Shown one piece after another: positions 1,997 to 45,942 of a stretch of 64,000 bases of DNA. The first letter of the stretch is position 1; every line of letters begins with the position of its first letter. The position numbers and the translations under genes are program-made. The notes under the pieces are model-generated. The model had not been told where the DNA came from. It did not search any database and saw nothing but the letters and a program-made list of their open reading frames with translations. The DNA is taken from positions 248,001 through 312,000 of the IMG/VR virus record IMGVR_UViG_3300034358_000008. One strand, given 5' to 3'. Source of the stretch: a virus.

Positions 1997-3163
1997 ATGT
2001 TACCATTAACTCTTCCAACCTTTACAGGCTTACCTACTAACCCAGTCGCGATTGTTGATCCCTATACCAGTGCCAACCCTGAGCTTATGACTAAGCTCGC
2101 TTCCAAGGTAACTGCATTCGATTCAGACCTTGGCGGCATTATTGGCAGTGCCACTAAGATGGTCAAGGGTATTGGTGACCAACTCAAAAGTAGTGGTATT
2201 GACTTACCGTCAGCTGTACAGCGTGTTAAAGACGCATTAGGGGGTTCCCGGTCAGCTATCTCAGATCTAGCCGAAGGCGTCGAGCGTAGCATCTTCGGAG
2301 ACCTCACGGGCATTGACGAAGGTACTGGCTACGTTCGTGGTGCTAACACCATGATTGACTCCGTTAAGATGGTGTACGACGGAGCTGTCCGTACATTCAA
2401 AGACGGCAACTTCAAAAACGTTTCCGGTATTGTCGATTTCATCGGTGATCTATCGGGTAACAAACTAATCGGTGTATTCGACCTTGGTGCTCAAGCAGCC
2501 CTCATTAAAGGTATCTTGGGCGAAGTATCTGATTGGGGTATCCCACAACTCGTAGATGAAACCTTTGGGGCTAAATGGAACCAAGAGAAGAACTCTTACG
2601 ATTACACCTATGATGATGAGTTCCGATTCAGTGTAACTAAACGTGCATCGGAGTCGATCTCTCCATCAACCAGCTTAGAAGTAATTGATCGTTTGATGGA
2701 ACATGGCGGTGATGCAGCATTGGTTGCTAATAACCCAAGCTTCCCTCAACAACTGTTGGCAGGTTATGTGTTTCCAGAAGGTTGCATTGCAGGGGGTCCT
2801 TACCCAGTAATGATTCCTAATCCTAGTATCCCAGGCGGTACTATGCCAGACCCTACTGGCGCACAGACTGTACCTAACTACGTAGATGAAGCACGTAAAC
2901 TGGTAATCATTCTCGATCGTTTGATGCCGGGCTGGTTTGAAGTTAACCGTACTGTGTCTACTGGGATTGATAGTAACCCTTGGCGTGTTGATAAGGCTTG
3001 GACCTTTCAATATATCAATACCGCCTCAGACGCCGCCAAGGCCGTTCTAACGACTAATGCGAAATACCGTGACGCTTTCCTTGCTGCACCGTTCTATCGC
3101 ATTGAATCGGGCGTAGCGCTCCTTAAAAACATGTATCCGTACTTCGTTGAGTCCTCCAGATAA
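1997..3163 (+). CDS. Putative virion structural protein
   Basis: 388 residues from the ATG at 1997, which has GGGTGA upstream. An in-frame ATG at 1958 sits inside the terminator stem and is unlikely. The N terminus is rich in Pro, Thr, Gly and Ala. Residues about 35-110 form an amphipathic region typical of phage structural proteins, and the C-terminal half has Trp/Tyr-rich aromatic patches. A structural role is inferred from composition and isolation as a single-gene unit between two terminators; I recognise no family. Confidence 0.65.
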   Translation: MLPLTLPTFTGLPTNPVAIVDPYTSANPELMTKLASKVTAFDSDLGGIIGSATKMVKGIGDQLKSSGIDLPSAVQRVKDALGGSRSAISDLAEGVERSIFGDLTGIDEGTGYVRGANTMIDSVKMVYDGAVRTFKDGNFKNVSGIVDFIGDLSGNKLIGVFDLGAQAALIKGILGEVSDWGIPQLVDETFGAKWNQEKNSYDYTYDDEFRFSVTKRASESISPSTSLEVIDRLMEHGGDAALVANNPSFPQQLLAGYVFPEGCIAGGPYPVMIPNPSIPGGTMPDPTGAQTVPNYVDEARKLVIILDRLMPGWFEVNRTVSTGIDSNPWRVDKAWTFQYINTASDAAKAVLTTNAKYRDAFLAAPFYRIESGVALLKNMYPYFVESSR

Positions 3164-42257: not shown

Positions 42258-42276
42258 TCACGTGGAGGAAAGCACT

Positions 42277-43050
42277 ATGCGTGAAAATATAACTTTGAAG
42301 TATCCAGATACGCCCGCCTTCTATAAGCTGACACTTAAGAGCGGACATTATTATGTTGGATCAACTAAACGTTTATCGAAACGGTTAAGAGATCACAGAC
42401 ATTATTTAGAAACTGGTACACACCACAACGAGAAGTTCCTCAGTCATTTTACCGAATGGTCTGAAGTCACTGTTGAGTTTAATGAGTATCAATTTCTGGA
42501 ATTAGCGAGGGCGCACGAACAGGCGCATCTCGATGAATATTATCTAGTGCCAGAACTATGTAACGTGGCTACTAACGTAGATAGTCTTTGGGGTGGACAA
42601 CATGGAATGCCTCAGGAGGTAAGGGATAAAATTGCTGCTGGGCATCGTGGTAAAACACATGGTCAAGCATTTAGAGATAAATGCCGAGAACGTATGTTAG
42701 GTTCAGTTATGTCTGATGAACATAAGCTAAAAATATCTGAAACCTTGAAAGGACGTGAAGTTAGTGTTGAACATCGTGCTAATCTCAGTAGGGCTTTGAA
42801 GGGTAAAGGCATCGGACGTAAGGCTTCTCCCAGTGCTATCGAGAATATGCGTAAAGCGCAACAAGGTAAAACAATGCCGGAAGAAGCTAAACGAAAAATT
42901 GCAGAAGCTAACTACAAACGTGTATCGGTGTATGATGTAGAATATGAATCACTCCAAGCCTGCGCGGTAGTTTATGATGTAAGTCACTCAACTGTTACTA
43001 ATAGGGCTAAATCGGATAAACCGAAATGGCATGGTTGGCGACTACTATGA
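42277..43050 (+). CDS. GIY-YIG homing endonuclease with NUMOD repeats
   Basis: 257 residues; GTGGAGGAAAGC before the ATG at 42277 (a GTG at 42262 is possible). N-terminal GIY-YIG nuclease variant: FYKL (15-18), YYVGS (25-29) and the catalytic Arg in SKRLRDH (about 36). The middle (about 105-215) has NUMOD3-type repeats (GKTHG/MSDEHKLKISETLKGR/MPEEAKRKIAEA), which bind DNA, and the C terminus (SVYDVEYESLQACAVVYDVSHSTVTNRA) is a NUMOD1-like helix-turn-helix. Free-standing mobile gene, more AT-rich than its surroundings, inserted on the plus strand between two minus-strand genes. No intron is evident. Confidence 0.9.
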   Translation: MRENITLKYPDTPAFYKLTLKSGHYYVGSTKRLSKRLRDHRHYLETGTHHNEKFLSHFTEWSEVTVEFNEYQFLELARAHEQAHLDEYYLVPELCNVATNVDSLWGGQHGMPQEVRDKIAAGHRGKTHGQAFRDKCRERMLGSVMSDEHKLKISETLKGREVSVEHRANLSRALKGKGIGRKASPSAIENMRKAQQGKTMPEEAKRKIAEANYKRVSVYDVEYESLQACAVVYDVSHSTVTNRAKSDKPKWHGWRLL

Positions 43051-45661: not shown

Positions 45662-45701
45662 GCCCTACCTCACGGTAGGGCGCTATACCTTTTCTTTTTT
45701 G
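45662..45701 (+). terminator. Rho-independent terminator
   Basis: GCCCTACC-TCAC-GGTAGGGC (8-bp stem), then a T-rich tract (ACCTTTTCTTTTTTG). Confidence 0.85.
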
Positions 45702-45725
45702 TTTAAAAGAATACTTCAGCATACA

Positions 45726-45734
45726 TGGTATAGT
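45726..45734 (+). promoter_or_regulatory. Possible extended -10 promoter for the ncRNA
   Basis: TGGTATAGT matches a TGnTATAnT extended -10 element and lies immediately upstream of the structured RNA. No convincing -35 element was seen. Whether host or phage polymerase would use it is unknown. Confidence 0.35.
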
Positions 45735-45911
45735 CAAGAAGCAGTCCGTGCAATTACGCACTGCGTTCAAGGGGGTGATCCAGCCATAGGTGACCTGGTA
45801 CGTTAAGAATACTAGCGGGAGCTAGCATCAGTACCTAACTACGTGCTTCTTCGACTTTCATTAGGCTTATCTAATCTAATGGGTATCTAGCCTTCCCTTA
45901 GCGGGAAGGCT
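45733..45911 (+). ncRNA. Structured non-coding RNA candidate with its own terminator
   Basis: About 180 nt without a credible ORF. A long closing helix GTCAAGAAGCA (45733-45743) / TGCTTCTT(C)GAC (45844-45855) encloses several hairpins: GTGC/GCAC (45748-45761), CCAG/CTGG (45780-45798), and CTAGC-GGGA-GCTAG (45812-45825), the last within a GTTA/TAAC helix. After the closing helix come CATTAG/CTAATG (45859-45881) and a terminator GCCTTCCC/GGGAAGGC (45890-45910). The layout, a multibranch RNA plus terminator after another gene's terminator, suggests an independent small RNA. It does not look like a tRNA, tmRNA or a riboswitch class I recognise. Confidence 0.55.
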
Positions 45912-45915
45912 TTAT
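45889..45915 (+). terminator. Rho-independent terminator of the ncRNA
   Basis: AGCCTTCCC-TTAGC-GGGAAGGCT followed by TTATG. Confidence 0.8.
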
Positions 45916-45942
45916 GCCGTCACTAACAATTGAGGATTGTTT

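Follow-up and report, generated by a model that had tools for sequence, protein, structure and literature searches.

Non-coding RNAs have been described in phiKZ by Grad-seq, where they correspond to the 3′ UTR of PHIKZ298 and the 5′ UTR of p40 (PMC8545117). Outside phages, an archaeal Val-tRF is a competitor of mRNA on the ribosome, binding to 16S rRNA close to the mRNA channel (PMC8938821). Synthetic molecules have also been directed at the 3′ end of 16S rRNA: to judge from the title of a 1981 report by Jayaraman, an oligonucleotide complementary to it inhibits protein synthesis and growth of E. coli (in PMC1995221).

The window analyzed here is a stretch of 64,000 nucleotides (bases 248,001–312,000 of a 324,912-bp viral record) from the genome of a 325-kb phiKZ-type jumbo phage. 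It contains, at 45732–45911, a free-standing, non-coding, structured RNA gene. We propose that phiKZ-type giant phages carry a dedicated small RNA that is a natural antisense to the anti-Shine-Dalgarno (anti-SD) sequence of host 16S rRNA and controls the ribosome by base pairing, a reading that we regard as probable, if far from secure.

Boundaries and fold of the locus

An earlier note on this DNA, made from the sequence alone, had described about 180 nt without a credible ORF between two terminators, and this is borne out. No credible ORF was found on the + strand between 45,690 and 45,930. The 5′ boundary is an upstream terminator hairpin (CCCTACC-TCAC-GGTAGGG, 45663–45681, + strand), at which the scan also calls a terminator on the − strand, and a second hairpin (45889–45911) lies downstream. 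The closed multibranch fold claimed in the same note is likewise present, all of it on the + strand. The closing helix P1 consists of 12 bp with one bulge, formed in the fold by a 5′ arm (45732–45743) and a 3′ arm (45844–45856) made up of TGCTTCTT, a bulged C and GACT. It encloses the P2 hairpin (45748–45761), in which GTGC (45748–45751) pairs with GCAC (45758–45761), and the P3 stem-loop (45797–45835). The outer stem of P3 is GGTAC/GTACC (45797–45801/45831–45835); its inner stem pairs CTAGC (45812–45816) with GCTAG (45821–45825) and is capped by the GNRA loop GGGA (45817–45820). In the alignments, P3 is followed by a conserved joining strand, TAACTACG (45836–45843), which reads AACTACG or CACGG in relatives.

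The further hairpin and separate terminator that had been claimed are found in the fold 3′ of this domain. The hairpin (45858–45882) occurs in folds of subfamily A only. The terminator-like hairpin (45889–45911) has 9 bp and is followed by TTTATGCCG; it has only a short T run (CTTTATG), and termination there is plausible. The same arrangement is seen in relatives, in which a terminator-like hairpin ends the RNA and TTTATG, or a sequence close to it, usually comes next. As a separate observation, terminators in these jumbo phages are often directly followed by TTTATGCCG or a close variant, with the late-promoter word TATG inside it (45911–45919 of the window, 1501–1530 of L079, and many other loci), and a similar arrangement occurs in Escherichia phage Goslar, which is without the RNA. 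Such an arrangement could couple termination to re-initiation.

The phages of this group transcribe with their own RNA polymerases. The string TGGTATAGT, previously interpreted as an extended −10 element, is present, but it is probably not a sigma-70 promoter, since the phages use their own polymerases and have a TATG or TATAG motif at the P1 boundary. Among the members inspected, this motif is TATG in subfamilies B and C and in Noxifer and its kin, about eight bases upstream of the boundary in subfamily B, and TATAG in subfamily A. In the window, TATAG occupies 45729–45733 (+ strand), and sequence comparison predicts a transcription start at G+1 = 45733; the start is inferred. The late-promoter consensus of phiKZ is T-3ATG+1 (PMC7598289).

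The folding energy of the locus is not significantly different from chance (z of −1.56 for 190 nt and 0.07 for the 123-nt core). It was therefore rejected as evidence for an RNA, and we rely on comparison instead.

Conservation and covariation among phages

When 1.4 kb of window sequence was compared by blastn, only 45690–45935 proved to be conserved in related phages, at 72–79% (201phi2-1, Viktualia, PA1C, PS119XW, phiHQ, BRkr, HHBS36_1, phiLBG22 and HPP-Temi); the PhiPA3 copy was recovered by a looser search, and that of phiKZ lies between PHIKZ203 and PHIKZ204, at about 212,840–213,060 of AF399011. The RNA was found in phiKZ, 201phi2-1, PhiPA3, PA1C, Noxifer, Phabio, Psa21 and DT01, and in more than 20 metagenomic jumbo phages. 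It is usually located at or near an SNF2 helicase gene, whose product in the window shares 76% identity with its counterpart in Pseudomonas syringae phage Viktualia and 87% with the one in metagenomic phage L111. The exact 17-mer RAGGGGGTGATCCAGCC occurs in 21 stretches of IMG/VR, mostly jumbo contigs, with the same RNA architecture in otherwise unrelated sequence. Two more motif scans added approximately nine jumbo contigs with this architecture, the remaining matches being without it. Neither the covariance model described below nor the motif detected the RNA in EL, OBP, SPN3US, pTD1, PBS1, phiEaH2 or Goslar. A covariance-model match in phiEaH2 (E 0.09) was rejected as a member, as it sits in coding-looking sequence.

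Most of the records matched by blastn have no annotation under the match; Viktualia, HHBS36_1 and HPP-Temi have small hypothetical ORFs that overlap it. The ORFs lying over the RNA are at 3045–3134 of L005 (Viktualia), 1605–1730 of L010 (HHBS36_1), 1418–1836 of L008 (HPP-Temi) and 3031–3153 of L080 (DT01); they are probably spurious.

Several loci deserve separate mention. In a distant relative (L175 at 1501, and L161; 41% helicase identity), the block described in the next section belongs to an RNA beginning TATG-CATGG, at a distance of about 5 kb from the helicase; its architecture looks alike, with no sequence in common outside the block. The 17-mer of L018 (110–126), a viral contig of 37.7 kb that does not belong to the jumbo set, lies inside a 10-bp helix (GCAGCCTTGC/GCAAGGCTGC) and is perhaps a minimal independent version of the RNA. 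In the 283-kb contig L124 (8367, + strand), AGGAGGTGATCC does not precede a gene start but stands between a stop codon and a terminator hairpin. L113 (3060, + strand) and L123 (3795, − strand) contain an enlarged RNA with an extra GNRA hairpin (ATCACC-GNGA-GGTGA), one arm of which repeats ATCACC, the 16S sequence targeted by the block; self-regulation is possible. The helicase and the RNA of PhiPA3 (L157/L081) are on the same strand, and in most other relatives they are divergent, pointing to an inversion next to the RNA. An ORF resembling a GIY-YIG/NUMOD homing endonuclease (42262–43050) lies near the 3′ end of the window's SNF2 helicase gene.

The earlier note had named the absence of compensatory changes in the helices of relatives as grounds for refutation. 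Such changes exist, well above shuffled and slid controls. Common to the family are the closing helix, the hairpin and the GNRA-capped stem-loop, with many compensatory changes. The sequence of P1 differs completely among relatives with its pairing kept, as in the arms AAGAAGCA/TGCTTCTT, GTCAAG/CTTGAC, AGACGAGG/CCTTGTCT, ATGTACAG/CTGTGCAT and GAATACAG/CTGTGTTC. In nearly all members, P3 consists of an outer stem and an inner stem with a GNRA cap, the loop of phiKZ being AGGA. Covariation was counted on MAFFT alignments built without structure. Because the alignment of all subfamilies puts P1 and outer P3 in the wrong register, it was counted within each subfamily, and across subfamilies for the GNRA stem only. 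The inner GNRA stem of P3 (27 sequences, all subfamilies) is 84.7% paired, compared to 57.9% when shuffled, and scores 0.728, compared to 0.245 for shuffled and at most 0.208 for slid controls (0/500). Subfamily C is 98.4% paired with 7 pairs changed on both sides (score 0.394, slid controls ≤0.112), and subfamily A is 90.2% paired with 5 such pairs (score 0.293, slid controls ≤0.140). P2 has compensatory changes in subfamily C; just 75% of its cells are paired in subfamily A, owing to a register shift. The helices contain G-U pairs, which points to an RNA and not to a DNA cruciform.

A covariance model built from six subfamily C sequences only gave 47–51 bits for subfamily B, 34–35 bits for Noxifer, L103 and PhiPA3, 29.4 bits for phiKZ and 27 bits for the window. 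Cellular copies (82 stretches of bacterial genomes with the 17-mer) were rejected as members; the 80 loci tested reach no more than 24.3 bits and served as the null for the model. The score of the window is thus little higher than the block by itself can yield, and the inferred membership of the window rests on blastn similarity and on covariation within subfamily A, not on the cross-family model. The window structure and the alignments meet the family criteria, namely P1, P2, the antisense block, the GNRA-capped P3, the ACGG/ACTACG joint and the terminator. On comparative sequence evidence alone, the window locus and its relatives are shown to be a conserved structured RNA gene.

An invariant block complementary to the 16S rRNA 3′ end

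The central feature of the RNA, which the earlier note had missed, is an invariant block antisense to the 3′ end of 16S rRNA. This block, AAGGGGGTGATCCAGCC (45769–45785, + strand), is located between the hairpins. It is the reverse complement of the 16S 3′ end (approximately nt 1525–1541) and spans the whole anti-SD, so that the target comprises the anti-SD and the 3′ edge of h45. In the window, the pairing table gives 16 Watson-Crick pairs and one G·U. The 16S tail GGCTGGATCACCTCCTTA is exact in gammaproteobacterial sequences, such as those of Acinetobacter, Legionella and Halomonas; for the tail of Pseudomonas we rely on established knowledge rather than on a genome sequence.

The pairing is kept in 34 RNAs, with 14–18 of 18 pairs formed. 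Position 4 and positions 7–15 of the block are invariant among them, and most variants elsewhere preserve pairing (A/G opposite U, C/U opposite G). The predicted duplex of block and tail has an energy of −33.8 kcal/mol, compared to −23.4 kcal/mol for the best of 2000 scrambles. In predicted ensembles, the unpaired fraction of the block is 0.45 with native flanks and 0.35 with shuffled flanks. The 13-mer AGGRGGTGATCCA occurs once each in 8 of 37 records and is absent from the rest, compared to 0/37 for a reversed control; seven of the eight matches are inside the RNA, and the other (L174) is an ordinary Shine-Dalgarno (SD) sequence before an ATG. It is found exactly once in each named phage with the RNA, and not at all in the seven phages listed above as lacking it.

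As a check independent of the motif, loci were fetched by helicase alignment rather than by the block. In the closer relatives thus obtained (L103–L116, L122 and L157), the core AGGRGGTGATCCAG is found immediately upstream of the helicase gene, with one difference in Phabio and two in L123. The position facing U1537 is A or G in these cores. This inner base of the block, the only one to change fast, switched between G and A four times or more on the helicase tree, as forced by well-supported branches, and either base pairs with the same 16S uridine. Changes between G and A are the commonest mutations.

None of the members found has a block altered to match a host whose 16S tail differs. When viral contigs were scanned for the A-form AAGGAGGTGATCCAGCC or for the enterobacterial form ending in CCAACC, no match had the architecture of the RNA; a recurrent A-form match (L046–L077) was rejected, as it resembles a protein-coding motif. 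We also considered a small ORF that would use the block as its SD sequence, and rejected it, since no start codon or frame is conserved after the block. The G·U or A-U pair at the anti-SD core, together with the absence of a start codon, suggests a decoy rather than an initiation site. As far as sequence comparison can establish it, an extended complementarity to the 16S tail is thus shown to be maintained across divergent phages.

Proposed role and relation to known systems

We favor, with some reservation, a mechanism in which the phage RNA pairs in trans with the 16S tail of free 30S subunits and limits or redirects translation initiation; transcription, binding and effect are all inferred. 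A conserved structured RNA of about 120 nt plus terminator would be made by the phage's own RNA polymerase from the inferred TAT(A)G start. Its scaffold of P1, P2 and GNRA-capped P3 would present the block of 14–18 nt, which may then base-pair in trans with the host 16S 3′ end, binding being inferred from the complementarity observed. Such pairing would cover the anti-SD and the strand adjoining h45 on free 30S subunits, where it is inferred to compete with SD-led initiation. The most likely effect is that a fraction of the 30S subunits would be withheld from, or redirected in, SD-dependent initiation, tuning translation during infection. This main reading is limited by the block being only about 45% unpaired in predicted ensembles. 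The genes of the window phage are themselves SD-led (79% at or below −4 kcal/mol, compared to 24% at random), so that an RNA masking the anti-SD would affect phage mRNAs as well. This makes a shut-off directed purely at the host unlikely, and the RNA should act in a limited dose, only at certain times or places, or instead by protecting or storing subunits.

The last of these options leads to an alternative that we hold to be possible, though unlikely, in which the RNA pairs with the 16S tail but holds, protects or positions 30S subunits rather than lowering initiation, whether by storage or hibernation, by shielding the 16S 3′ end from nucleases or by tethering ribosomes near the phage nucleus. 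Complementarity and conservation fit it equally well, a protective or local role would be less costly to a phage that depends on SD-led translation, and proteins by which phiKZ targets host ribosomes are known (PMC10914614). However, the whole anti-SD is covered, so that competition with mRNA is to be expected, and no partner protein or localization signal was identified. We find it quite doubtful that the block binds another ligand, a phage protein or another RNA, with the 16S complementarity a by-product of a purine-rich, SD-like motif. The block is indeed more invariant than 16S pairing needs, as positions 7–15 do not change even to wobble pairs; yet 14–18 contiguous pairs far exceed a usual SD, the complementarity stops close to the mature 16S 3′ terminus, and neither the pair-preserving variants nor the weaker scrambles reported above fit a by-product.

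It is very improbable that the RNA is a cis-acting leader or attenuator of the downstream gene, sensing free 30S subunits, even though the hairpin and terminator lie 3′ of the folded domain and a gene starts shortly 3′ of the RNA in the window and in 201phi2-1. The downstream gene differs among relatives, and PS119XW, phiHQ and BRkr have a convergent gene as the next one annotated, which argues against a leader; the riboswitch or cis-leader criterion of a conserved same-strand downstream gene is not met, and the folds show no evident alternative pairing between domain and terminator. The earlier note's preference for an independent small RNA over a leader is thereby supported, and the inferred TAT(A)G start, the hairpin resembling a terminator and the change of downstream gene between relatives would suit an independent unit, for which there are no transcript data. 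Finally, one copy per genome beside the helicase and an unremarkable folding energy would be compatible with a DNA element (an origin or packaging site) or a chance fold; this is scarcely credible in view of the compensatory changes with G-U pairs, the GNRA loops, and the TAT(A)G and terminator-like hairpin at the 5′ and 3′ edges of the relatives inspected.

If inhibition or redirection of initiation by pairing is correct, the RNA joins the means by which a phage can take over ribosomes and offers a compact natural scaffold for controlling 30S availability. The phiKZ-type phages are a group studied for the uncoupling of transcription from translation, and a small RNA gene has been overlooked in them, including the model phiKZ. 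Since phiKZ carries the RNA and has established infection, Grad-seq and antisense-silencing methods, the RNA is testable at once.

The earlier note had recognized no known class, which fits our searches. Rfam 15 gave nothing at the gathering threshold in the window or five relatives, the best sub-threshold match being U6atac (E 2.9), off the domain, and ARAGORN found no tRNA or tmRNA genes in the window. No description of the RNA was found in the literature searched; an earlier notice of a transcript at the phiKZ locus is not excluded. To our knowledge, no natural RNA that targets the anti-SD by extended pairing has been described, and the literature searched contained none. No known family corresponds to the RNA or to natural antisense targeting of the anti-SD.

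The Grad-seq RNAs of phiKZ are similar in being structured non-coding RNAs of the same phage group, but they come from other loci, and the RNA between PHIKZ203 and PHIKZ204 is not named in the main text of PMC8545117. Ribosome-associated RNAs such as the archaeal Val-tRF and S. aureus SprF1 (PMC8938821) also act on the ribosome and not on one mRNA. Unlike the phage RNA, they are cellular tRNA fragments or an antitoxin; no phage family with this scaffold is among them, and none is reported in PMC8938821 to pair at length with the anti-SD. As regards that class, complementarity to the 16S tail is all that has been established for the phage RNA, for which there are no association data. The oligonucleotides of Jayaraman, as far as the title conveys, share the target site; they are man-made and linear, whereas the phage RNA is natural, structured and phage-encoded. 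Trans-acting bacterial and phage sRNAs that pair with mRNAs are comparable as terminator-ended RNAs exposing a conserved seed, but the putative seed of the phage RNA, at 14–18 nt, matches rRNA rather than mRNA.
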